The notes beneath the pieces were generated by a model. That model saw only the letters and a program-made list of their open reading frames with translations, was not told where the DNA came from and searched no databases. The position numbers and the translations under genes are program-made. 64,000 bases of DNA from Sphingobium phenoxybenzoativorans (GTDB lineage: Bacteria > Pseudomonadota > Alphaproteobacteria > Sphingomonadales > Sphingomonadaceae): NCBI RefSeq assembly GCF_001757355.1, contig NZ_MINO01000013.1, forward strand, positions 1 to 64,000, read 5' to 3'. This document shows positions 1-46,033 of this stretch, in pieces. The first letter of the stretch is position 1. Every line of letters starts with the position of its first letter.

Positions 1-990
1 TCATAAATTCCGCCTGCACGCCTTTGCGGGCAGGGCAAAGCGCGGATCGGTGAGGAATTTCTGGTCCGTCAGGCTTTCCATGAACGCGATCATGTCCGCC
101 ATCTGCGCGCCGGTAAGCGAAACGCGATGCATATGGATCGCCTCGGCCATCGTGCTTGTCGATCCATCATGCATATAGGGGGCAGTGACAGCCACATTGC
201 GCAGCGATGGCGTACGGAATCGGCCCTTGTCCGCTATATCGCCCGTTTTCTCGAACAGGCCCAGGTCCGGCGTCGGGCTCACCGGCAATGCGTGCAGGCT
301 GTCGTTGGTAAGGTCCTGCCCTTGATGGCAATTCCGGCAGCCCGCCGCATTGAATAGCTGTAACCCCCTGCGCGCCGCCGGGCTTAGCGCCGACATGCTG
401 CCAGCCAGAAAGCGGTCATAGGGGCTGTCGAAGGATGTCAGGGTGCGCTGGAACGCGCTTAGCGCGGCCGCGACATTCGCAAGATCGATCCGGCCACTGG
501 TTTCGGGGAAAGCGCGAACAAACATGGCGCGGTAACAGGCGTCCTTGCCAAGCCTGCGGCCGATTTCCGCCTCCTGACCCTTCATGCCGAGTTCGATGGG
601 ATGATCGCCGAGCAAGGGGACGGCCACCTGTGCTTCAAGCTGGTTCAGGCCCGTGTCCGCCCAGGTGAGATGTCGCCGCCATGCGACATTCGCCAGGCCC
701 GGCACATTGCGACGGCCGGGATCGCCGTGCACTCCCGGCCTTGTGCGATTGCCATCGGCGAAGCCGCGCTTCTGCTCATGGCAGGTCGCGCAGGCCATGG
801 TTCCGTTGATCGACAGGTCCGCTTCATAGAATAACCGCCGCCCCAGTTCGACCTTTGCGGCGCTCATCGGATTGTTCGCCGGAACGGGGGGCGGGGCTGT
901 TCCGCGCGGGATGCGCCATTGCCAGCTATGGGGAACGGTTGCCGCCAGCGTCAGGCCGACAAGGGCAATGGCGAATAGCCTGCCTTTCAC
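1..990 (-). CDS. Di-heme cytochrome c peroxidase-family protein (MbnH/CcpA-like)
   Basis: Exported di-heme c-type cytochrome of about 329 residues. Two heme-binding CxxCH motifs are visible, CATCH (about residues 67-71) and CRNCH (about 218-222), the layout of bacterial di-heme peroxidases and of MbnH-type enzymes. A hydrophobic signal segment follows the start. The open frame extends further upstream, but I chose the GTG at 988-990. It opens directly with the signal sequence and overlaps the stop of the preceding gene by four bases (GTGA), which indicates translational coupling. The stop lies at the window edge, so the gene is complete. Family members oxidise substrates with peroxide or modify a partner protein in the periplasm. 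The co-transcribed small exported protein is a candidate partner (inference). Confidence 0.85.
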   Translation of the reverse strand: MKGRLFAIALVGLTLAATVPHSWQWRIPRGTAPPPVPANNPMSAAKVELGRRLFYEADLSINGTMACATCHEQKRGFADGNRTRPGVHGDPGRRNVPGLANVAWRRHLTWADTGLNQLEAQVAVPLLGDHPIELGMKGQEAEIGRRLGKDACYRAMFVRAFPETSGRIDLANVAAALSAFQRTLTSFDSPYDRFLAGSMSALSPAARRGLQLFNAAGCRNCHQGQDLTNDSLHALPVSPTPDLGLFEKTGDIADKGRFRTPSLRNVAVTAPYMHDGSTSTMAEAIHMHRVSLTGAQMADMIAFMESLTDQKFLTDPRFALPAKACRRNL

Positions 991-34294: not shown

Positions 34295-37200
34295 TTACCG
34301 GTTTGCTCCGGTCACCATTCTCGACGCAGCGCGCAGCGAGAGTTGATCCAACTTCATGCGCATGGTCACATAGGGTCCCTGGCGGGTGTAGCGGTCGGCT
34401 TCGAAATCGCGGTCGCGATAGCCGCTGATATTATAGCCTGCGGTTATCCAGACATTCTGCGCCGGGGAAACGCCGGCCGACGGGCCGAAGCTGAACGATT
34501 TCGCGCCGTCCTTCCAGGCGTGTTGCATGCTGCCAGAGAAGCCGACATCGAAATGCTTGCCGATATCCTTGCGGATTTCCGTTCCGATCACGTCGATGAA
34601 GCCATCATAGACATCATCGGCATAGCGTCCCCGGACATATTTCGCGCCATAATAGAGGCTGACCTCCAGCCCGTGCCCAGCGCCTTCGTCGCCGGAACGA
34701 TAGTTTATGGCGATGTTGTTGATCGCCCTTGTGGTCGTCTGGTCACCGTCAGCGAAGGAGGGTACGCCAAGCGCATTATTATTGGAGATGCCAGCGTCGG
34801 CGCGGTCGTGACGGAGTTCAAAACGCTCCAACAGCGACCAGCGGCTGTCCAGCGGGCGATAGGCAATGGCGATGTCGGCGGAGGCGAAGGAGGCAACGGC
34901 CCCGTCCTTGTCCTTCACCTTATACATGCGCAGTCCGGCGGCGATTGTCTTGCCCTCGCCCAATGTGCGCAGGACATTGGTGGTGACGCCCCAACGATCG
35001 GATTCGCTGCCGGTGCGATATTCCAGGCGGCCATTCCAGGACCAGCGGTCTGCGCGGTAAGTGCCGCCGATCGTGGCGGACTGATAATCGCCGTTGATCT
35101 GTTCCTGGCCGAGCGATCCGCCCGATGCGGCGGGGTGGAAAGGATTGATGATATCGCCGGTCGGAATGCGCCCCTTCACCGTCTTGCTGGCGTCCAGCGT
35201 TGCGTCGATGGTCCAGCTCTTGCCGATCGGCAGCGACTGGCTGAGGCCATATTGCGCAAAGGTGCGCGGGCCATTCTCGCCAATGGCTTCCTGATTGAGC
35301 GTGCTGAGCAGCTTCGCGCCGGTCCAGGGGGCGACATCGAAGCCGAAGCGCGTGCTGTGCGCCTTGAACTTGTCGCCCTCCGCGATCTCATGCTCGGCCA
35401 GTATGCGGATGCCGTTGCGGATTTCATAGGCCGCGCCGACCGTGTGGCGAACGGGGAAATCAACGCTGTCATCTGCGCCGCCAAGGGCAAACTGGGTCTC
35501 GCCCTTGATCTCCAGCTTCTGGCCGAAGAAGCGCTGGGTTGCGCCCAGCATCAGCAATTTTGACTCGCGTTTCTCGCCAGACAGGGTGGTGTCGGACGCA
35601 ATCTGCGCGCCGGCGTAGAGCAGCCCTTTGTCCCGGCGATATTCGGCGCGGACGTCTCCTGCGGTGCGGCTGCCCGCATCCTCCAGATTGTCCTGATGCC
35701 AGGCCGATCCAGCGATGCTGATCCGGTCTGACAGGCGAGCGCGGCCATCGACACCGAATTTCCGGGTGCCGGTCTCGCCGCCATTCTGCTGGCCAACGCC
35801 GAAAGTCTCGCCCTGCTGCCGGACATAGGCGGTGCCGTCTATCACGCGGCCATGATGCTCCACCTCGGCCAGCCAGGCGCGGCCCTCGCCGATGCCGCCG
35901 CCACCGCCCGACGCCGCCTCTGCGCGGATTTCCGTGTTGGGGGTGACGCGCGCCTTGATGTCGACGCCGCCGACTGTCGCGCTGCCGATGGTTTCGTCGC
36001 GGATCAGGCTGGCGCCGACCTCCACCTTGCCATCGGCAAAGCGGGTGGCGACGCGGCCGCCAGCGGCGAATTTGCGCGAGCGGCCGCCATAGGTTTCATA
36101 GTCAACGACGATGAAAATGGGGTTGAGATCAGCGTCGCGGCTGAGGATCGGTTCGCGGAAACGGATCGTGCCCGCGTCGGCATCGATGTCATAATCGATG
36201 TGGCGGGTGAGCTGCTTGCTGTCGATGATCCGTTCGGACCGGAAGCGGTCGCGCACCTCGATGCGGATCTTGTCCGTGTTGGGCACGATGGCGCGGCCGG
36301 AGAGGCGGTAGGGGCCGGACAGGCCGTTGCCCTGAATTTCATCGCGCCCATAGAGCTGGTCGCTATTGGCGGCGAAGCCGTTGAAGGTGATCCGCTTGCC
36401 CTGATATTCGGCCTTCACGCCGTTCAGCGTCCGGCTGTAACGGGTCAGTTTGGTGTCGACCAAGCCGGTTTCGAAATCGCCGAACAGGGCGTAAAATTCC
36501 CGGCGCTCCAGCCGCAGGTAGAGTTTGCGACGGGTGGCCGCGTCAAACATCTGGCGGCTGCCGTCGCCATAGACAGTATAGTAGCGATCAGGATCGATCG
36601 TGCCCAGCAGGCCGCGGTCGGGATCATATTTCTTGTCGCTGTCATAGGCGATGGTGAGCAGCCAGGAGCCCTTAACCTGACCCTTGGCGTAGAAAGAGAG
36701 TTGTCCGTCCGTCACAACTTGGTTGCGTTCGCCCTTGGGTAGAGCGCTGGAGCGGGACTTGAGCATGTCATAGCCGACCGTGCCCTTGCCGAAGCCGACA
36801 ATGACCCAATCCTGCATCGATGCGGCCAGCCAGGGGCGGAACTCGCTGGTCTGGGTGATGCCCTGATCCTGCAGCGTGACAGTGACATGGGCTGCGCCTG
36901 CCTGGGTGGTGGGTTCCAGCGCGATGAAGGCGATGCCCTCATCCCCAACCACGCGGGCGGTGGCGCTCGTCTTTTCGCGACCGGCGAGTTGGCGGCCCTG
37001 CTGCAATTCAGCCTCTTGCGCGGCGGTGTAGGGCTGGTCGACCGAGAAGGGGGCCATCGTGCCCGCGCGAACGGGTTTGCCGTCGCGGTCGGTCAGGCGC
37101 ACGGCGATCAGCGGGCGGGTAAGGCCGTCAGCAACCAAGCGAGACTTTTCCGGCACGAAGGTCGCCCGGACCGCCTGATTGGCGTAATGGATAGTCCGCT

Positions 37201-39301
37201 GGAGCGTCTGAACCACCGCGCCGGAGGCGTCCAGCACCTGCGCATCGAGCACATTGTCACGCTCGCCAAGCGGCAGGCCGGTCCAGACCGACACGGCGAC
37301 GCCGGTCGCGTCGTTGGTGTCCGTGCCGTCGAAGGTCAGCGGATCGACGATAGCGCCGTTGAGGCGCAGCGCAACGCGCTGGCCGGGCAGATGCTTGATG
37401 ACGGCGCGCAGGGCGGGCGCGCGCGGGTTGTGATCTGCCAGCGGGAACAGCCAGTCGATGCCCGGCGTCTGCCCAGCGAGCCAATCGGGTTTGTTCCCGG
37501 CGGCATCGGCATCGGCAAGCGCCTCGATGGGGAGGGCGCTCAGCTTCGGGTCCGCAGCCTTGCCCGTCCGGCGAAGCTGGAAACCGACGCGATTGAGGCT
37601 GCCGCCGCCCGCATCGACAAAACGGGAGATGGCGCTGCCTGCCTGACGCGTGTCGCTGTCGCAGGCGACGGCCTCATGCGTGGCGGGGATGCTGCGCTGG
37701 TCGATCTGGACAACATGGGTGCCGGGCCGTACGCCCTCGACATGGTAGAGGCCATCCCGGTCGGTGATCACGAAGGTGCCGTCCTCCATGATCAGGCGTA
37801 TGCCGGGAACGCCCTTGCGGTCTTTCAGCGGATCGCCGCAATCCCCTTCAGTAACCCTTCCGATGATCGTCAGGGCGTCCGTGAACAGCAGCGACTTGAT
37901 GCGGACAGACGCGCTCGCTTCGTTGCTGGCTGCGCCATTGCTGATGGCGACCGCGCGATTGAGCGCTTCCCCCGCGGGCGCGCCCGGCGCGATCTCGACA
38001 ACATAGCGGATGTCGCGCGCTTCACCGGCGGGAAGGTCTGCACCGGCAAAATGCAGCGTTCGGCCGTCGCTTGACACCTCCGGCTCCGCAGAGCCGCGTG
38101 TTGAACCGCGTTTGTAGCGGAGTCCCCTGGGCAGGGTATCGTCAATGGCTGGCGCATAGGCAACGCTCGCTGAGCTGCGGTTTGTCATGCGCAGGCGATA
38201 TTGCACAAAATCGCCAGGCGACGCCTGACGAACCGATGCGGTTTTCTCTAGGGTTATTTCTGAACCGGTTGGCCGGTCGAGCGGTATGTCGATCCTGACC
38301 GGATCGGGGTCTTTCAATTCAAAGGAGCCTCCATAGGAGGCATTGACAATGATGAAGGCGCCTTCCGGTCCCTGGAGAGACGCAATTTCCTCCGGTTTCA
38401 CCACCGAAGGAGCAGTATAACCAGCCGGAGGCTCGATTTTTAACCTATAATGTCCAGGCGGCGCGAGCGGGAAGCGGAATGTGCCTTTTTCGAAATAATA
38501 GTTCCACCCGCCGGCGTCCGTTACCATCGATCCAGTGACCACCCGGTTCGGATAGGTGCTGACGCCATCGTCGCCATAAACCTGTGCGGCGGGAAGGCCG
38601 GTTGCATCGTCGATCAGCGTTACGATGGCGCCGTCGATCAGCGCGGCGGTACGGGAATCGAAAACATGCCCTTCGGGATCGATCAACAGCGAGCCGGAGG
38701 AGGCCAAGCTGTCCTCGTCGCCCGGATAATAGACGGTGAGCTGAGATTTCTTGCCCTGCGTGATGTCGCATTCGTTGGCGATGCCCGTGCGACGGCTGTT
38801 CGGCGGCATCGCTCCGGCAAATATGCCGGTGTCGTTGCCCGTCTCCATCAGGACGATCTGGCTCTGGCGGGAGCCGCTTTCCGCGATCACCGTCGATGTC
38901 TCGCGCGCGGCCGGATTGTGATTATCGCCCTTGTTTTCGAGGACGATCACTAGGGGATTGTCGATGTCCAGCGATTTCAGGGGGGATGCGCTGGCCAACT
39001 GGTCCGCATCGAGGCTGTTCGGCGTGAACCGCAGAGGATCCTTTTCGCACTTTAGCGTGGGATAATTGATCTGATATCCCGCCGGAAGACGGCGGAAGCT
39101 CAATTTGGTTGGATATTTGGTACGCGGAAGTTCCAAAGAGGTACGATTGGACTGAATGCTTTTCTGACCCCCAGACGTGCCGAAGCTTAGCGTCGCCACA
39201 TTCTCGATCCGCGTCTGCGCGAACGCGCTCCCCGTGATGAGGAGCGCGGCCAGGCCCATCAGGGCAGCGACGACGCGGAGAAGATGGAGGAGTTTTCGCA
39301 T
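34295..39301 (-). CDS. Giant DUF11 protein with predicted outer-membrane beta-barrel
   Basis: 1668 residues. Signal peptide (1-28), a short leader module IENVATLSFG, Ig-like regions, a DUF11 repeat (about 345-470; LEKTASVRQASPGDFVQYRL, then LPRGLRYKRGSTRG), and a Cna-B/SdrD-like regulatory fold (about 478-535; GVPGIRLIMEDGTFVITDRDGLYHVEGV overall). More beta domains follow, and from about 950 to the end there is a long alternating-strand region rich in Tyr/Arg/Gly that looks like an outer-membrane barrel. I start at ATG 39301, which opens with the signal peptide and has GGAG upstream. Homologues occur widely in sphingomonads, but I know no function. Last gene of a four-gene operon. Confidence 0.8.
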   Translation of the reverse strand: MRKLLHLLRVVAALMGLAALLITGSAFAQTRIENVATLSFGTSGGQKSIQSNRTSLELPRTKYPTKLSFRRLPAGYQINYPTLKCEKDPLRFTPNSLDADQLASASPLKSLDIDNPLVIVLENKGDNHNPAARETSTVIAESGSRQSQIVLMETGNDTGIFAGAMPPNSRRTGIANECDITQGKKSQLTVYYPGDEDSLASSGSLLIDPEGHVFDSRTAALIDGAIVTLIDDATGLPAAQVYGDDGVSTYPNRVVTGSMVTDAGGWNYYFEKGTFRFPLAPPGHYRLKIEPPAGYTAPSVVKPEEIASLQGPEGAFIIVNASYGGSFELKDPDPVRIDIPLDRPTGSEITLEKTASVRQASPGDFVQYRLRMTNRSSASVAYAPAIDDTLPRGLRYKRGSTRGSAEPEVSSDGRTLHFAGADLPAGEARDIRYVVEIAPGAPAGEALNRAVAISNGAASNEASASVRIKSLLFTDALTIIGRVTEGDCGDPLKDRKGVPGIRLIMEDGTFVITDRDGLYHVEGVRPGTHVVQIDQRSIPATHEAVACDSDTRQAGSAISRFVDAGGGSLNRVGFQLRRTGKAADPKLSALPIEALADADAAGNKPDWLAGQTPGIDWLFPLADHNPRAPALRAVIKHLPGQRVALRLNGAIVDPLTFDGTDTNDATGVAVSVWTGLPLGERDNVLDAQVLDASGAVVQTLQRTIHYANQAVRATFVPEKSRLVADGLTRPLIAVRLTDRDGKPVRAGTMAPFSVDQPYTAAQEAELQQGRQLAGREKTSATARVVGDEGIAFIALEPTTQAGAAHVTVTLQDQGITQTSEFRPWLAASMQDWVIVGFGKGTVGYDMLKSRSSALPKGERNQVVTDGQLSFYAKGQVKGSWLLTIAYDSDKKYDPDRGLLGTIDPDRYYTVYGDGSRQMFDAATRRKLYLRLERREFYALFGDFETGLVDTKLTRYSRTLNGVKAEYQGKRITFNGFAANSDQLYGRDEIQGNGLSGPYRLSGRAIVPNTDKIRIEVRDRFRSERIIDSKQLTRHIDYDIDADAGTIRFREPILSRDADLNPIFIVVDYETYGGRSRKFAAGGRVATRFADGKVEVGASLIRDETIGSATVGGVDIKARVTPNTEIRAEAASGGGGGIGEGRAWLAEVEHHGRVIDGTAYVRQQGETFGVGQQNGGETGTRKFGVDGRARLSDRISIAGSAWHQDNLEDAGSRTAGDVRAEYRRDKGLLYAGAQIASDTTLSGEKRESKLLMLGATQRFFGQKLEIKGETQFALGGADDSVDFPVRHTVGAAYEIRNGIRILAEHEIAEGDKFKAHSTRFGFDVAPWTGAKLLSTLNQEAIGENGPRTFAQYGLSQSLPIGKSWTIDATLDASKTVKGRIPTGDIINPFHPAASGGSLGQEQINGDYQSATIGGTYRADRWSWNGRLEYRTGSESDRWGVTTNVLRTLGEGKTIAAGLRMYKVKDKDGAVASFASADIAIAYRPLDSRWSLLERFELRHDRADAGISNNNALGVPSFADGDQTTTRAINNIAINYRSGDEGAGHGLEVSLYYGAKYVRGRYADDVYDGFIDVIGTEIRKDIGKHFDVGFSGSMQHAWKDGAKSFSFGPSAGVSPAQNVWITAGYNISGYRDRDFEADRYTRQGPYVTMRMKLDQLSLRAASRMVTGANR

Positions 39302-39365
39302 TATCCGCTCCGTCCCCGGCGCATCGTCGAATGCGCCGGGGACCAGACCATGCCTTTGCGATTCG

Positions 39366-40463
39366 TCAGTTGACGGTGACGCGGAAGGAGGCGGCGAGCG
39401 GCACATTCACGCTGAGCGTCGGAATGTTCGCCTTGACCGTGGTTCCGTCGAACGACCCGCCATAGGGATCGCTCTCGTCAGCGCCGCTGGTGTCGTCATC
39501 CTCCGTCGTGCCGAGCAGTGTGCAGGCGCCCGCGATACCCGGCGTTCCGACCGTCAGCGAATTGGAGATGTAGGTGGTCCCGGAGGGCACGGCGTCGGCC
39601 AGAACCACGCCGGTTCCGGTGCCGGGACCGGCATTGCTGACGGTAAGGCAATATTCGATCACTGCGCCGGGGATCGCCTTCGGATTGATGCCGAGATTCA
39701 ACGGATCGCTGACAACCGTTGCCGTCTTGGTCATGGAAATGGCGGCGGTCGCGATCTTGTAGCTGTCGAAGGCGCGGCCTTTGCCGTCGCGCGCCGGATC
39801 AATGTAGGGACCGGCGGCATCGGCGAAGACAATGTCGACAGTGGTCGGCGAATCTGCGGTCAGCAGGGATGTCGCAGTCAACGCGGCGCCCTGAGTCCCG
39901 CCCTGACCGCCCGCCGCCGCCTGTGCGACGAGTGAGACGATCGCAACGTCCGCACCGGGCGTGTTCGGGATATTGGCGACGATGAAGACGGTTACCGAGG
40001 CGTCCGGTGCAAGTTCGTCCACGTAGGTCGCGGTGTCGACGCCTGCATCATAGGTGCCGTTGCCGTTCGAATCGACGAACACGCGCATGTTGGTGACGTC
40101 GAAATTGTCGGTCCCCAGCATCGGGATGGAGATGACCTGCTGCTCCGCCGTCAGGATGAAATCCTGCACGGCGTTGGTGAGGTTGGTGACCTGAAACGTG
40201 GTGACCTGATCCGTTGCGCCGATCGCAGTAGAGGTCGCCGTGCCGCCGACTTCCGTAACCGTCAGGTTGACCTTGCGGTCGACCAGGAAAGTTGCGGTGT
40301 TTGATTGCGCCGTCTGGGTGGAGCCACCGACGGTATAGGTGACGCTCGCTGTATTCGCGATGCTGGTGCCGGCAGTCGTGCCGGCCGCCTGTGCTGCGCC
40401 GCTCCAGGCCGAAATGGCGGCCGCCGCTGACAGCATTGCAATCTGTGTGATTGCCTTGAACAC
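39366..40463 (-). CDS. Exported DUF11-domain protein with Ca-loop-like motif
   Basis: 365 residues. Signal peptide (VFKAITQIAMLSAAAAISAW..AQA), leader module SIANTASVTYTVGG, a middle domain with VFVDSNGNGTYDAG (an EF-hand/dockerin-like D-x-N-x-N-G-x-Y-D loop), and a C-terminal DUF11 domain (ISMTKTATVV; VPSGTTYISNSL). The start is decided by a perfect AGGAGG five bases before GTG 40461-40463. The longer frame to 40532, which overlaps the previous stop, has an unnatural N-terminus. Role unknown. Probably a cell-surface or extracellular structural protein (inference). Confidence 0.78.
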   Translation of the reverse strand: MFKAITQIAMLSAAAAISAWSGAAQAAGTTAGTSIANTASVTYTVGGSTQTAQSNTATFLVDRKVNLTVTEVGGTATSTAIGATDQVTTFQVTNLTNAVQDFILTAEQQVISIPMLGTDNFDVTNMRVFVDSNGNGTYDAGVDTATYVDELAPDASVTVFIVANIPNTPGADVAIVSLVAQAAAGGQGGTQGAALTATSLLTADSPTTVDIVFADAAGPYIDPARDGKGRAFDSYKIATAAISMTKTATVVSDPLNLGINPKAIPGAVIEYCLTVSNAGPGTGTGVVLADAVPSGTTYISNSLTVGTPGIAGACTLLGTTEDDDTSGADESDPYGGSFDGTTVKANIPTLSVNVPLAASFRVTVN

Positions 40464-40528
40464 TGAAACCTCCTGATTCACAATCGATGCGACGCTACGT
40501 GGTTGGGATGTGGGGAAGACCCGTTCGG

Positions 40529-41020
40529 TCATTTCAGAACGGCTTCGAAAGCGACTTTGCCGGCCGCGCCTGCGGGCAGGGCGTTGGCGATGCGCCAGCG
40601 GACATGGGTGACATCTTCCGGCCGCGCAGCGTGCCAGGCGCCGTCTGCGCCGCGCACTTTAAGCGTCGCGAGAGGGCCGTAGGTCTTGCCGTCTACCGAT
40701 ACTTCGGGCGCGGGCGATCCCTGCGCCGGGCCGCGATAGGTCAGCGCATCCGGTAGTGGATTGTTGAGGGTCAAGCCCTCGATCGGCTGCGCCCCGCCAT
40801 TGCGGTAAGCGAGTTGATAGACAACGCGGTCGCCCGGCGTGACCCGTGTGGCGGGGGTCAGTGCGATCTTCGTCGTGCCGTCGGGGGCGGTCGATCGCTG
40901 CTGCGAGAAAACGGTGTTGGTAACGGTCAGTCCGGCGCCAAAGGCCGGGGCTGTCGCCGTCAGTGCGGCGAGCGCCGTGCACAGGCCAATTGGAAAGCGC
41001 ATGATGGATATCCTGTTCAT
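40529..41020 (-). CDS. Small exported single-DUF11 protein
   Basis: 163 residues: signal peptide then essentially one DUF11 domain (VTNTVFSQQ; TPATRVTPGDRVVYQLAYRN; LPDALTYRGPA). The annotated ATG at 41018-41020 overlaps the upstream stop (ATGA). An alternative ATG at 41000-41002 has AGGA eight bases before it and also leaves a good signal peptide. It is the only member of the operon lacking the I-x-N-x-A leader module. Confidence 0.75.
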   Translation of the reverse strand: MNRISIMRFPIGLCTALAALTATAPAFGAGLTVTNTVFSQQRSTAPDGTTKIALTPATRVTPGDRVVYQLAYRNGGAQPIEGLTLNNPLPDALTYRGPAQGSPAPEVSVDGKTYGPLATLKVRGADGAWHAARPEDVTHVRWRIANALPAGAAGKVAFEAVLK

Positions 41021-41991
41021 TGGATTTTCACTTGGAATGTCACGACGCGGGTCGTGGGCTGATCAATGTCGCCAAGGGCAACAAGGATGGAGGAGCCGTC
41101 GAAACGGCCATTGTCGGCATCGGCGGCGTCACTGAGCGCTGCGCCGTCAATGCTGAGCGATCCGGGCAGATAGGTTGTGCCTGCAGGAATGGGGTCGGAC
41201 AGTTGCGCCGCAGTCAGCCGCGCTGCGGAACGGGTAATGACTTCCAGCCGATAGGTGATCGTCGCGCCCGACACGGGGGAGGAGGTTCCATCGGGCGCGA
41301 CGACCTGCTGCGACTTGACGACGCTGGCGTCGGCTTCGGTCGCAGTGAAAGGGGTTTCCGCTGTGGCGGCCGCAGACGTCGATCCGACAACTGCGTCAGT
41401 GCCATTGTCGCCACGCCCGGCGAAGGTCGTGCCGGGTGCGCCGGTGCCCGTGGCGGACTGGGCGTGAAGCGAGATGACCCCCGCACCGGCCTGATTCGAC
41501 GCGGGGATGATGACGAGAAGTTGCAGGGTTGCGCCGGGGCCAATGCCCGGCGTTGTTCCACCAGCGCCAATGGCCGTATCGATCGCCGGATCGAATTCGC
41601 CGTTGCGGTCGGCATCGATGAACAAAGTGCTGGCGGGCAATGCCGCGCCGCCCGCCGTGGCGCTCAGGACAAAGGCTTCGTTGCCATTGCCGCTGTTGGT
41701 GAGCAGGAAGGGAATGCCGCGATCCGCCTCCCCGGTCGATACCTCAACCGTGCCGGTGCCCAGCGCCTGCAGTCTGACATCCAATATCTCGCCAACGCGC
41801 GTGGCGACCAGATTTGAGGAAATGCTGGCGTTCTCGCCATCCACGGCGAAATGGAGCGATGCGACATTGGTGATCTGGGCGCCGGCCGATGCCTGTGCGT
41901 GGAGCGGGGACGCGGCGCACAGCAAAAAGGCCGCGCAGAATGCCGAAGCATGCGCCCTTTGCCGCCATTTCCCTGTTATAACCGCCCGCAT
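41017..41991 (-). CDS. Exported DUF11-domain protein, first gene of the operon
   Basis: 324 residues. Signal peptide (RQRAHASAFCAAFLLCAASPLHAQ), leader module QITNVASLHFAVDG, a middle domain with FIDADRNGEFDPAID (D-x-D-x-N-G-x-F-D Ca-binding-like loop), and a C-terminal DUF11 domain (ADASVVKSQQVV; IPAGTTYLPGSLSIDG). Its plan is the same as that of the 39366 protein, so the two are paralogues. The ATG at 41989-41991 has GGAACATT upstream. It is 125 bases downstream of the Hpt gene on the same strand, and that gap probably holds the operon promoter. Confidence 0.78.
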   Translation of the reverse strand: MRAVITGKWRQRAHASAFCAAFLLCAASPLHAQASAGAQITNVASLHFAVDGENASISSNLVATRVGEILDVRLQALGTGTVEVSTGEADRGIPFLLTNSGNGNEAFVLSATAGGAALPASTLFIDADRNGEFDPAIDTAIGAGGTTPGIGPGATLQLLVIIPASNQAGAGVISLHAQSATGTGAPGTTFAGRGDNGTDAVVGSTSAAATAETPFTATEADASVVKSQQVVAPDGTSSPVSGATITYRLEVITRSAARLTAAQLSDPIPAGTTYLPGSLSIDGAALSDAADADNGRFDGSSILVALGDIDQPTTRVVTFQVKIQ

Positions 41992-42116: not shown

Positions 42117-42776
42117 TTACGCGTTCCGGTTGAGGCTTTCGAGCACTTTGCGAGCGGCTTCATGGGCGGCCGGAAGGGCCGACAAATCTCCATGATCGAC
42201 CGTGGACCATTGTTTGCTTAGCGCGGCAAATCCCATGGTGCCCGCCATGCCCGCAATATTATGCGCGATACGCCCGATATTCTGTCCCTCGTCCAGAGCA
42301 TTCAACGCTTCCGTAAGCGAGCGGGCGAAACCGGCAAACAGCGAAGCGGCGCGCTTCCGTCCAGCCAGCCGGACCATCCGATATTGCGGGTTTTCGGCAT
42401 CCCGGAAGGCATGGTCCGCCACTGGCCCGCTCCAATTTTCCAGCATGGTCATGAACCGGGCCTGGTCCAACGGTGGATCGATCCGATCGTTCAGGCCGCC
42501 CACAGGCTCAAAATCGGCCTCCGCATACAAAATGGCGGGTATTCCAGCAGCGAAACCTGGCAATGCGCGTATTTCGGTGATCGCAGCGGCTATGGTTTTT
42601 GCGCCTGCAGCGCCGTCCAGCAGGATGATCGCCGCGCCGTCCTTTGCATGGGCCGCCGCAACCTCCCTATTCGAAGCCTGCAAGCACGACCATCCGAAAG
42701 GCGCCAATACGCCAGTAATCCACTGCTGCAGTGTGTCGTCATGGCTCAAGACGGTAAGCGCGCTTTGATGGCTCAT
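42117..42776 (-). CDS. Histidine phosphotransfer (Hpt) protein with receiver-like N-terminus
   Basis: 219 residues. The C-terminal part has the Hpt signature IAHNIAGMAGTMGF, with His172 the likely phosphoacceptor. The N-terminal half has a receiver-like fold (LTVLSHDDTLQQWITGVL, IILLDGAAGA, PAILYAEA), but the usual acidic pocket and phospho-Asp context are degenerate. It is divergent from a response regulator and hybrid kinase, so it most likely shuttles phosphate between the kinase receiver and a regulator. ATG at 42774-42776. Confidence 0.75.
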   Translation of the reverse strand: MSHQSALTVLSHDDTLQQWITGVLAPFGWSCLQASNREVAAAHAKDGAAIILLDGAAGAKTIAAAITEIRALPGFAAGIPAILYAEADFEPVGGLNDRIDPPLDQARFMTMLENWSGPVADHAFRDAENPQYRMVRLAGRKRAASLFAGFARSLTEALNALDEGQNIGRIAHNIAGMAGTMGFAALSKQWSTVDHGDLSALPAAHEAARKVLESLNRNA

Positions 42777-42899: not shown

Positions 42900-43544
42900 A
42901 TGGTGCGTGAGGGGCGAATATTGTTGGCGGATGATCATCCGCTGGTCCGCGAAGGATTGCAGATAGCAATTCGTGCGCGCTTTCCGGGCATGATTGTCGA
43001 TGCGGTCGACAGCATAGAGGCGGCGGAAAGCGCGGTACGCGCGCACAAAGCCTATCGATTGATGCTGCTGGATTACCGGTTGCCTGACAGTGACGGCTTT
43101 TCCGGCTTCTTCCGGATGCAGCATGTATTGGGCACGACGCCCATCGCCATCATTTCCGCCCATGATGAGGAGGCGATTGTCACTGCCGCGCGCGCTATCG
43201 GCGCCGCCGGCTTTCTTTCCAAAACCCAGCCGCTCGATGAATTGGCGCGATCCATCGAAACCCTTTTGAATGGGAAGATCGTTTTCCCTGCGAATCTTGG
43301 GACGACAGGGGACCTCACAAAGCTGAAGGAACGGATTGAGAGCCTTACCACCGCCCAGATGCGCGTGCTTTCAGCGCTCGCGCGCGGGCATCTCAACAAA
43401 CAGATTGCGGGCGACCTGGATCTTTCCGAAGCAACCATAAAGGCACATTTGACTGCAATATTCAGGAAGCTAGAGGTTAATAACCGGCTTCAGGCGATGT
43501 TGGCGGTTCGAGCCTTCTTCAATCCGGAGGACAAGGGCACGTGA
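42900..43544 (+). CDS. NarL/FixJ-type response regulator
   Basis: 214 residues. Receiver domain with acidic pair Asp11-Asp12 (LLADDHPLV), phosphoacceptor Asp58 (LMLLDYRLPDSDG) and Lys in LSKTQPL, then a LuxR-type HTH (about 148-205; TTAQMRVLSALARGHLNKQIA, SEATIKAHLTAIFRKL). Transcription factor, presumably the output of the adjacent hybrid kinase. Its stop overlaps the kinase start by four bases. Confidence 0.92.
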   Translation: MVREGRILLADDHPLVREGLQIAIRARFPGMIVDAVDSIEAAESAVRAHKAYRLMLLDYRLPDSDGFSGFFRMQHVLGTTPIAIISAHDEEAIVTAARAIGAAGFLSKTQPLDELARSIETLLNGKIVFPANLGTTGDLTKLKERIESLTTAQMRVLSALARGHLNKQIAGDLDLSEATIKAHLTAIFRKLEVNNRLQAMLAVRAFFNPEDKGT

Positions 43545-46033
43545 TGATGGCCGGTGGAACGCCTAATCTCTGGCGTAATCTGCTTGTGGCCGCTCTTATC
43601 TCGATTGCACTCGTTTCGACTGCGTTATGGTTTGGCACTGAATATCGGCGCACAGCGGATACGACCGCTGCCGTCAATCTGTCCTTCCGGCAGCGGCTGG
43701 CGATTGAATCGGTCTTTTCGGAAATGAAGGACGGAGAAACCGGTCAGCGCGGCTATGTCATCACCGGCAATCCCGATTTCCTGCAGCCCTATAATAAGGC
43801 GCTCCGCGAAATGGACGGCACGCTGGCCAACCTCAGCCAATTACTGAAAAACGAGCCGGGAACGGCGCGAGATCTCCAGATATTGCGCCAATTGATCGAC
43901 CAGAAATTTGTCGAGATGAAGCGGGTCATCGACGTCAGGCAGCGGCAGGGGCTAAATGCTGCGGCGAGCGTGGTCATGGATGGCCGCGGCAAGCAGCTTA
44001 TGGACGCGCTGCGTACGCATGTGTCCAAGATGGTGATGGCAAGGAATGCGGCGCTTGCGCAGGATCTGGAATCGGAAAGCAACCGGACGGTCCACACCCT
44101 TGAAATCATATGGGGTGGCGTGGCGCTTGCCTCATTGGCTGCCTTCATCATCGCCTATATGCTGTGGGCAAGCCGCCGGGACAGCTATACCGCGCAGCGG
44201 CAAGCGATGGATCACCTGACCCGCCAGACCGCGATCTTCAAGAATACGCCAAGCCCGGTGATATTGATCAATCCCAGCGGCAGCATGGAAATCCTCAATC
44301 CAGCGGCTGAACATCTGTTCGGTTATCCCTCCACGGACCTTTTGCGCAGGGATATCTCCATCATCGCCAATATCGCGCCGGGAGAGGGGGCCTTTCTGGA
44401 CCGGCTGGGCGTTACCGGCGATCATATAGCCGAACCCTCCCGCCCGAATGTCGGGGCGCGCAGAAGCGATGGCAGCGTCGTGCCTGTGGATATCACGTTG
44501 GGCGTCATGCCTCTGGAGGATGGCATCCATATCGTCACATCGTTCAGCGATATTTCCGAGCGAGAGAAAATCGAACGGATGAAGGACCAGTTCCTGTCCA
44601 CAGTAAGCCATGAACTTCGCACGCCGCTTACGTCCATTGTCGGCTCTTTGGGGCTGCTGCGCGGCGGTGTCGCGGAGGAGCTTGCGCCAGGCGCGCAGCG
44701 ATTGGTGGTCATTGCGGAGAGCAATGCGAACCGGCTTATCCGCATCGTGAACGATCTGCTGGATGTTGAGAAACTGCAGTCCGGCCAGATGACGTTCGAT
44801 TTCCAGCCGCTTGATCTTCGGACGATCGTGGAGAAGGCGGCGGATGCGATGCGCGGTCTATCGGCCACGCGGAATATTCGCATAGAGATTGGCGATAACG
44901 ATGCTCCCGTCATCGTTCGCGGCGATGGCGATCGTCTTATACAGGTTGTTACCAATCTGGTGTCCAATGCCGTAAAATTTTCTCCGGAAGGGTCCACTGT
45001 CTCGGTGCTCTGCGGAACGCAGGGAAGCCATGCAAACATCAGGGTCGCGGATCAGGGACCTGGCATTGAACCCGGTCTCAGGGAGCGTTTGTTTACCCGC
45101 TTCGCTCAGGGGCTGGGCTCCTCGACCTCCGCCACGCAGGGTACGGGCCTTGGCCTGGCGATTTCGCGTGAGATTGTGCGGAATCATGGCGGCGACATCT
45201 GGCTGGAGGATGCGGCTGGCGGAGGAAGCGTCTTTGCCTTCAACATTCCTCTATGGAATGTTCTGACCGGGCAGGAGGACCTGAACGGTGCTCCCCGCCT
45301 GCTGGTCTATGCCGATGCGGTTGGCGCAGAAACGATAAGCGCTGGTTTCGCCGAGCGCGCGATCCGCGCGGATGCCGTCAGTTCACCGGAGGCTGCGCTG
45401 GCGGCGATTGAGGGCCGGTCCTACGTCGCGATGGTCCTGGATTTTCAGTTTGCCGCTGATGACGCATTGCCCCTTTTGGGAGTGATACGGTCGCATCCCC
45501 GCGCCCGGAATTTGCCGGTCATCGCGATCTCCAGTGAAGATCCGCCGCTGGAGGCGGCGCAGACAGCCTCGCTCGACATTATCGACTGGATAGAAAAGCC
45601 GATACAATCCGCGCGCCTGAGTGACGCGATCGAGTCCGCCATCAAACGTACCTCCGGGCATATCCCCCTGGTGCTGCATGTGGATGATGACAGCGATCTG
45701 CTGGAAATCACCGCCAAGGCGCTGAGCGGCCTTGCGCGGATAGCCCAGGCGACCGACGTGGCCTCCGCCCGTGCATTTCTTGCGGAGCACCGGGTGGACA
45801 TAGCGATCATAGATTTGGCTCTGCCGGATGGATCGGGTCATGATATATTGGCTGATCTGAACGCGCGGCAGGGGCCTGCGACGCCCGTCATCATCTATTC
45901 CGCACAGGATGGTGGATTGGCGCTGGCGCGGGATGTTGAGGCGGTGCTGACGAAATCCAAACGCTCGTTGCCAAATCTTGTCGAAACTGTGCTGTCTATC
46001 GTGGAGCGTCGGAAGGGAGAGGAGGGCCTATGA
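43541..46033 (+). CDS. CHASE3-PAS hybrid histidine kinase with two receivers
   Basis: 830 residues. Transmembrane helix (about 13-31), periplasmic CHASE3 sensor (about 35-180; ETGQRGYVITGNPDFLQPYN region), second helix (about 188-210), PAS (about 228-345), HisKA with His357 (STVSHELRTPL), and HATPase (VTNLVSNAVKFSPEG; GTGLGLAISREIV). Two receivers follow. The first (about 595-700) is weakly conserved, with Asp in LDFQFA, and the second (about 705-820) is canonical (HVDDDSDLLE, IIDLALPDGSG). GTG 43541 overlaps the regulator stop; ATG 43544 is equally possible. The sensed signal is unknown. Confidence 0.92.
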   Translation: MMMAGGTPNLWRNLLVAALISIALVSTALWFGTEYRRTADTTAAVNLSFRQRLAIESVFSEMKDGETGQRGYVITGNPDFLQPYNKALREMDGTLANLSQLLKNEPGTARDLQILRQLIDQKFVEMKRVIDVRQRQGLNAAASVVMDGRGKQLMDALRTHVSKMVMARNAALAQDLESESNRTVHTLEIIWGGVALASLAAFIIAYMLWASRRDSYTAQRQAMDHLTRQTAIFKNTPSPVILINPSGSMEILNPAAEHLFGYPSTDLLRRDISIIANIAPGEGAFLDRLGVTGDHIAEPSRPNVGARRSDGSVVPVDITLGVMPLEDGIHIVTSFSDISEREKIERMKDQFLSTVSHELRTPLTSIVGSLGLLRGGVAEELAPGAQRLVVIAESNANRLIRIVNDLLDVEKLQSGQMTFDFQPLDLRTIVEKAADAMRGLSATRNIRIEIGDNDAPVIVRGDGDRLIQVVTNLVSNAVKFSPEGSTVSVLCGTQGSHANIRVADQGPGIEPGLRERLFTRFAQGLGSSTSATQGTGLGLAISREIVRNHGGDIWLEDAAGGGSVFAFNIPLWNVLTGQEDLNGAPRLLVYADAVGAETISAGFAERAIRADAVSSPEAALAAIEGRSYVAMVLDFQFAADDALPLLGVIRSHPRARNLPVIAISSEDPPLEAAQTASLDIIDWIEKPIQSARLSDAIESAIKRTSGHIPLVLHVDDDSDLLEITAKALSGLARIAQATDVASARAFLAEHRVDIAIIDLALPDGSGHDILADLNARQGPATPVIIYSAQDGGLALARDVEAVLTKSKRSLPNLVETVLSIVERRKGEEGL

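Follow-up and report, generated by a model that had tools for sequence, protein, structure and literature searches.

A four-gene DUF11 operon in Sphingobium phenoxybenzoativorans as a candidate for a self-assembling surface fibre with split isopeptide domains

Domains of the DUF11 family (PF01345), recently renamed CLIPPER, are known from crystal structure 9IFR to carry a Lys715-Asn806 isopeptide bond with Asp748 as the presumed catalyst, and in the copies treated in the available text of PMC12617251 the bond forms within one intact domain, often in an adhesin stalk. Here we describe four minus-strand genes, named A, B, C and D in order of transcription, at positions 34295-41991 of a 64,000-nucleotide stretch of the Sphingobium phenoxybenzoativorans genome (contig NZ_MINO01000013.1, positions 1 to 64,000, hereafter the window), in which the same domain family with the same Lys and Asn positions is found as a whole copy inside D and otherwise appears to have its Asn-bearing hairpin on another protein. 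The reading that we favour, with a probability of roughly 0.65, is that complementation by a donor hairpin is locked by a spontaneous isopeptide bond between subunits, and that D forms the base of a self-assembling surface fibre.

Chaperone-usher pili (type 1, P and archaic) share with this locus an N-terminal donor extension, an incomplete immunoglobulin (Ig)-like acceptor and an outer-membrane barrel, and the donor-less acceptor proteins described below compare with their tip adhesins. The locus differs in encoding a hairpin instead of a single strand, a CnaA-like fold, a predicted covalent lock and a barrel of about 35 predicted strands, against 24 in the usher. Membership of the chaperone-usher class was rejected, as neither a PapD-like chaperone nor an usher matched in the four proteins, and so was the type 11 secretion system, for which no DUF560 match was obtained (both Pfam, E value up to 1); a plain fibrillar adhesin was likewise considered and rejected. 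The engineered SpyTag/SpyCatcher pair derives from a CnaB domain, whereas the split proposed here is natural, CnaA-like and repeated along the proposed fibre. In the available text of PMC6539128 that pair is a split isopeptide domain reacting in trans, as the proposed joint would be. The archaeal thread Saci_0406 and TasA also form donor-strand fibres outside the chaperone-usher pathway, but with a different fold and bond position and with no outer-membrane barrel; for the archaeal threads, donor strands are accompanied by apparent inter-subunit isopeptide bonds in the available text of PMC9715654. Lys-Asn cross-links formed without an enzyme by phage capsid subunits are mentioned in the available text of PMC12617251. 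SprA of the type 9 secretion system resembles D in its very large barrel and stands among the Foldseek and VIA rows of D, with no sequence relation between the two in Pfam or against PDB sequences. No description of a split DUF11/CLIPPER joint or of this operon was found in the open-licence literature searched.

Division of the CLIPPER domain between proteins

On profile comparison, the C-terminal CLIPPER domains of A, B and C end short of the last beta-hairpin of the fold. All three stop at column 93 of the 134 columns of D's complete domain, the Asn of which lies at column 104 within the hairpin beyond that end point, and none of the three holds the whole domain in one chain. On the C-terminal domain of A, the Pfam DUF11 alignment reaches position 84 of the 114 in the profile before the protein comes to its end. 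The family is recognised by sequence profile and by a CnaA-like fold. With TIGR01451 (cut-off 24 bits), A and C score 35.7 and 49.1, and B and D just below the cut-off at 22.1 and 23.6; with Pfam DUF11 (cut-off 24.6 bits), C and D score 33.7 and 26.2, and B and A fall below at 20.5 and 16.7, which leaves B under both cut-offs. No further DUF11 was found in the organism's own genome beyond these four genes (E value up to 0.01).

Mature A, C and D open with a hairpin of the motif I-x-N-x-A ... S-N. Its conservation was followed in 100 related loci that are not a random sample, having been picked for D: twenty (L031-L050) are stretches chosen from D matches, and eighty (L051-L130) are the best of 480 relatives. 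Near-duplicates are few among the resulting protein sets, distinct sequences numbering 94 of 95 for A, 92 of 96 for B, 96 of 98 for C and 100 of 101 for D. A hairpin profile built from A matches the N-terminus of 94/98 C (median 27.4 bits) and 97/101 D (22.9 bits), where the best shuffled scores are 5.3 and 3.7 bits respectively, and of only 4/96 B. The C profile matches 93/95 A, 62/101 D and 6/96 B, the D profile 93/95 A, 74/98 C and 14/96 B. When N-terminal segments of A, C or D were joined to the C-terminal domain of A, the Pfam DUF11 score rose from 21.8 to 30.2, 29.6 and 31.3 bits, against 23.1 with a control segment; for the C-terminal domain of C it rose from 38.5 to 43.9, 41.3 and 45.0 bits, against 39.4. 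The gains, obtained with one control segment for each of the two proteins, are thus 7.8 to 9.5 bits versus 1.3 for A and 2.8 to 6.5 versus 0.9 for C. Searches against PDB sequences gave no match either for the C domain joined to the D hairpin (phmmer, E value up to 5) or for the C profile (E value up to 1).

The residues of the reactive triad are almost always kept even though they are spread over different proteins. Acceptor Lys and Asp are each present in 95/95 A and 98/98 C, and the donor Asn in 93/95 A, 97/98 C and 99/101 D; the two D proteins lacking it come from the distant two-gene relatives L045 and L046, without which the count is 99/99. Thinning at 90% identity leaves Lys, Asp and Asn in 78, 78 and 76 of 78 A and in 79, 79 and 78 of 79 C, and the donor Asn in 73/75 D. 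Each residue of D's internal triad is retained in 98/99 proteins (L045 and L046 left out). B has mostly lost both acceptor residues: its Lys site, placed by profile alignment, is Val in 72/96 and Lys in 6/96, and its Asp site is Asn in 88/96 and Asp in 2/96. In the alignment of 9IFR to D, Lys and Asn occupy chain positions 10 and 101, the same spacing of 91 as between 715 and 806, and Asn806 falls on D's Asn448. The Lys-Asp-Asn triad is complete in D's internal domain and split between chains for A, C and D, the bond itself being a prediction.

Complementation between C and D is also predicted by modelling. C and D lie in one reading frame in 32/79 loci, and for one of these, L078, a read-through construct joining mature C, a Gly in place of the stop codon and D residues 1-209 was modelled with AlphaFold2 (60 rows). 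Two hairpins in this chain, that of C itself and that of D, could fill C's C-terminal domain. The model has a predicted local distance difference test (pLDDT) score of 85.4 and a predicted template modelling (pTM) score of 0.59, with the linker and the D signal peptide disordered and the D hairpin forming strands at about 79-89. In VIA, 9IFR superposes on it over 120/123 residues at 2.5 Å (Z 12.1) in the model range 218..428, which runs from the start of C's domain through the end of D's hairpin, and in 29/50 rows the aligned range begins within 217-224 and finishes within 427-431; because VIA gives alignment end points only, the use of D's hairpin is read from this coverage. Two natural fusions carry core and hairpin within one chain. 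In L154 (2205 amino acids) and L177 (2417 amino acids), a subunit-like piece precedes the D part, with a hairpin directly behind the truncated core. In L177 the core match stops at 343, and residues 348-376 score 11.5 bits with the D hairpin profile and 14.6 bits with that of A; in L154 the hairpin profiles give no match, and the hairpin, R-V-D-N-S-G-R-I ... D-S-N, was recognised by eye.

The predicted D barrel, the proposed assembly and its alternatives

An AlphaFold2 model of D residues 600-1668, built on 50 alignment rows (the window and 49/80 loci), has a pLDDT of 75.5 and a pTM of 0.59, on account of which the strand number is only approximate. Ig-like domains are followed by an ill-predicted stretch and then by long strands, about 35 in number, into which a plug-like segment is inserted, so that the C-terminal barrel which a preliminary description of this DNA had read into the 1668-residue protein is predicted here as well. 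LptD heads the Foldseek rows, FecA, the Mtr complex and SprA stand within the top 50, and the same 50 also hold Ig-domain, ApoB and axoneme chains. Fold comparison of the barrel part returns mostly membrane barrels (LptD, TonB receptors, porins, MtrB, SprA, VDAC, TOM); the VIA rows are membrane barrels including VDAC and TOM, with a highest Z of 14.3 (273 residues, 8.4 Å), and SprA is aligned with Z 12.4 over 392 residues at 10.1 Å. Residues about 861-935, ahead of the first predicted barrel strands, are highly conserved with a pLDDT under 50, and are perhaps a gate or further strands.

Computation shows that the domain is divided, that the hairpins are homologous, that the reactive residues and the order of the genes are conserved and that D ends in a predicted barrel; from this we infer pairing between chains, a covalent bond, roles for B and D and a surface location; the fibre, the bond and adhesion are predictions. 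A and C would be the fibre subunits, each opening with a donor hairpin and closing with an Ig-like CLIPPER domain that is incomplete. One subunit would supply the hairpin that completes the C-terminal domain of the next, and the hairpin of D would enter C or A. As the hairpin brings its Asn to a pocket holding Lys and Asp, an isopeptide bond would be expected to form without an enzyme and to lock the two chains, making the joint a natural split isopeptide domain. D, which has a donor hairpin and a giant barrel but no open acceptor, would be the outer-membrane anchor and probably the export pore. B, an acceptor without a donor and mostly without Lys and Asp, could hold hairpins in a reversible manner only and would act as a chaperone or cap. 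The preliminary description already suggested a surface assembly that brings its own anchor or exporter in the outer membrane, and this evidence favours that idea; the splitting of DUF11 between proteins had been missed there, as had the nature of B as an acceptor largely deprived of its reactive residues. The full picture, a Gram-negative, covalently self-polymerising fibre with split isopeptide joints, a catalytically dead acceptor B as chaperone and a D of about 35 strands that both exports the fibre and is bonded to its base, is put forward tentatively, at somewhat less than even odds.

In some relatives, the chain may be terminated by acceptor-only proteins, labelled E and F. Thirty-two open frames of 154 to 855 amino acids in the fetched loci, mostly directly 3' of D, end in a truncated C-type CLIPPER; F proteins are small single domains of about 155-176 amino acids, and E proteins are larger with a different N-terminal region. 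The donor motif was found near the called start in 0/32, some of the frames beginning too early for the scanned part to be the mature N-terminus. By regular expression the Lys is unmatched in 7/32, although most of those show a Lys by eye, and the same expression finds Arg in 3 and Glu in place of Asp in 8 of the 32. In their logic E and F resemble tip adhesins, and they would fit the tip of the proposed fibre. Neither an E nor an F gene was found in the window. Possible tip adhesins among the acceptor-only proteins are those at L044 4022-5974, L041 5373-7379 and L167 606-1817; to the eye, the N-terminus of the first two resembles a P-type domain, and that of the third a domain of the ice-binding DUF3494 type.

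Several observations weigh against pairing and bonding between chains as proposed. The C hairpin profile reaches just 62/101 D and the D profile 74/98 C, a profile made from the hairpin of D's internal domain gives scores close to zero with all four proteins, and hhalign of the hairpins to that domain is not significant, with the A and D hairpins in the expected register. By our count the CLIPPER Asp lies 34 residues after the Lys, and the numbering in the available text of PMC12617251 gives 33. The distant loci L168 and L172 have Ser in place of D's donor Asn, and in L174 no hairpin can be recognised, so that the joint at the base would not always be covalent; in L043 the donor Asn of A is Ser and D's internal triad is gone, and a recognisable A is absent from all three same-genus relatives fetched (L178-L180). 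In the L078 model, with its pTM of 0.59, domain and hairpin follow each other in a single chain just as they would in a normal DUF11 repeat, an arrangement that favours a docked answer, and C's own hairpin is well ordered too (pLDDT 92-95); for these two reasons the model is support and not proof.

The Ser residues of L168 and L172 would suit a donor hairpin that complements without a covalent bond, in the manner of chaperone-usher pili, with Lys, Asp and Asn serving packing or hydrogen bonds, and the evidence for hairpin and acceptor holds independently of the chemistry. All three residues are nonetheless near-invariant on separate chains, and B, with its Lys site mostly Val, has mostly lost the Asp too, and we consider purely non-covalent assembly unlikely. 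The well-ordered hairpin of C speaks for self-complementation, in which A and C each close their C-terminal domain with their own N-terminal hairpin to give closed adhesin monomers, D and B being separate; monomeric TasA does so, as do some AlphaFold predictions of the thread subunit in the available text of PMC9715654. Yet D is a donor without an open acceptor, and B and E/F are acceptors without a recognised donor, so that these at least need pairing in trans; moreover, the fit of 9IFR on the C-D model extends through D's hairpin and the fusions place an A/C-like core beside a hairpin leading into D, and closed monomers seem quite improbable to us. The joining of a C-terminal barrel to an N-terminal Ig-like region would also be expected if D displayed its own Ig stalk like an autotransporter or a porin, with A, B and C as accessory or periplasmic folding factors and no fibre being formed. 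Classical autotransporter barrels have 12 strands, however, against about 35 in D, no autotransporter family matched any of the four proteins (Pfam, E value up to 1), and A and C are constructed as donor/acceptor modules; we give this explanation very little credence.

Gene order, relatives and neighbouring genes

The preliminary description placed four consecutive same-strand genes here, the first two overlapping by an ATGA, all with signal peptides and DUF11-type domains. The coordinates bear this out and add a like overlap at B/C, all four genes overlapping or nearly abutting; the N-termini do resemble signal peptides by eye, and the profile scores given above uphold the domain assignment, B being below both cut-offs. 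The real start codon of C may sit about 25 codons further downstream, and the reading frame of D extends without a stop back to 39406, inside the end of C.

Conservation of the gene order was found as well, A-B-C-D standing on one strand in 92/100 loci; the other eight are L045, L046, L057, L066, L113, L117, L118 and L085, the last reading A-B-C-C-D. D-like matches, some partial or distant, occur in 77/296 genomes of the order and 29/79 genera, own included, an occurrence far beyond chance, and C matches in 74/296 genomes. Within the window's genus 11/94 genomes match D, of which 7 (own included) have a full-length D, the other six at 56%; the closest D proteins among the order genomes scanned belong to another genus of the family (62 and 58%). 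Named carriers include Sphingomonas, Sphingopyxis, Novosphingobium, Parasphingorhabdus, Sphingobium and Asticcacaulis. Profile searches further out match 11/385 genomes taken from the class and 57/398 from the phylum, counts in which the window's own genome is included and many of the matches are partial. The four genes form a real, conserved operon that can still be recognised in distant proteobacteria. In L167, A, B, C and D are accompanied by an acceptor-only gene; L169 carries these same five genes but begins with the acceptor-only one; in L170, B, D and a C-like gene between them are found together with an acceptor-only gene. A related two-gene system at L045 4813-17759 and L046 2443-8963 consists of a DUF11 protein (2882 or 740 amino acids) with D's N-terminal part and a separate barrel-type protein of about 1430 amino acids. 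D-like pieces containing internal stops in a same-genus genome (G715:C1:3808942-3809750) suggest gain and loss of the operon within the genus.

Homologues of the genes adjoining the operon (Table 1) were found in the 100 fetched loci for the regulator (23), the kinase (25) and the Hpt protein (3), and in 0/100 for the cysN, cysD, azurin, FkbM, TonB-receptor, acetyl-CoA synthetase and amine-oxidase neighbours (E value up to 1e-10). The Hpt protein, LuxR-type regulator and CHASE3 kinase are possible regulators of the operon. A GGDEF-EAL-like gene, named by eye from motifs, is present in 8/100 loci. In the same-genus loci L178 and L179 an acceptor-only gene follows D, and upstream of B, with its end some 0.2 kb from the B frame, stands a GGDEF-EAL-like gene, hinting at control by cyclic-di-GMP. 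The regulator, kinase and GGDEF-EAL neighbours would together fit control of surface attachment.

Table 1. Predicted features of the operon and its neighbours, in window coordinates (aa, amino acids)
Feature	Position	Strand	Description	Basis
Gene A	41017..41991	minus	324 aa: N-terminal donor hairpin, middle domain, C-terminal truncated CLIPPER (DUF11) acceptor	
Donor hairpin of A	41794..41889	minus	aa 35-66, Asn42 (codon 41866-41868)	
Acceptor domain of A	41020..41328	minus	aa 222-324, Lys226 and Asp266; stops at column 93/134 of complete CLIPPER	
Gene B	40529..41020	minus	163 aa: signal peptide and one truncated CLIPPER, mostly lacking Lys and having Asn in place of Asp; donor hairpin absent	
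Gene C	39366..40532	minus	up to 388 aa: donor hairpin, middle domain, truncated CLIPPER acceptor	
Donor hairpin of C	40275..40379	minus	aa 52-86, Asn60 (codon 40353-40355)	
Acceptor domain of C	39369..39749	minus	aa 262-388, Lys269 and Asp313	
Gene D	34295..39301	minus	1668 aa: donor hairpin, N-terminal domains, complete CLIPPER, Ig-like domains, giant C-terminal barrel	
Donor hairpin of D	39122..39217	minus	aa 29-60, Asn34 (codon 39200-39202)	
Complete internal CLIPPER of D	37874..38266	minus	aa 346-476, Lys353-Asp388-Asn448	
Ig-like domains of D	36857..37504	minus	about aa 600-815	AlphaFold2; weak Invasin_D3 match
Predicted outer-membrane barrel of D	34355..36496	minus	aa ~936-1649, about 35 strands, plug-like insert about aa 990-1060	
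Hpt protein	42117-42776	minus		Pfam
LuxR-type response regulator	42900-43544	plus		Pfam
CHASE3 hybrid histidine kinase	43541-46033	plus		Pfam

Meaning for surface fibres and the DUF11 family

Both physical principles invoked here, donor-strand complementation and autocatalytic isopeptide bonds, are already known individually. If the proposal is true, their combination would be a way of assembling fibres that differs from the sortase, chaperone-usher, type IV and type V routes. It would also be nature's parallel to engineered protein-glue technology, provide new peptide-protein ligation pairs and assign a function to a set of DUF11 genes found repeatedly among proteobacteria.

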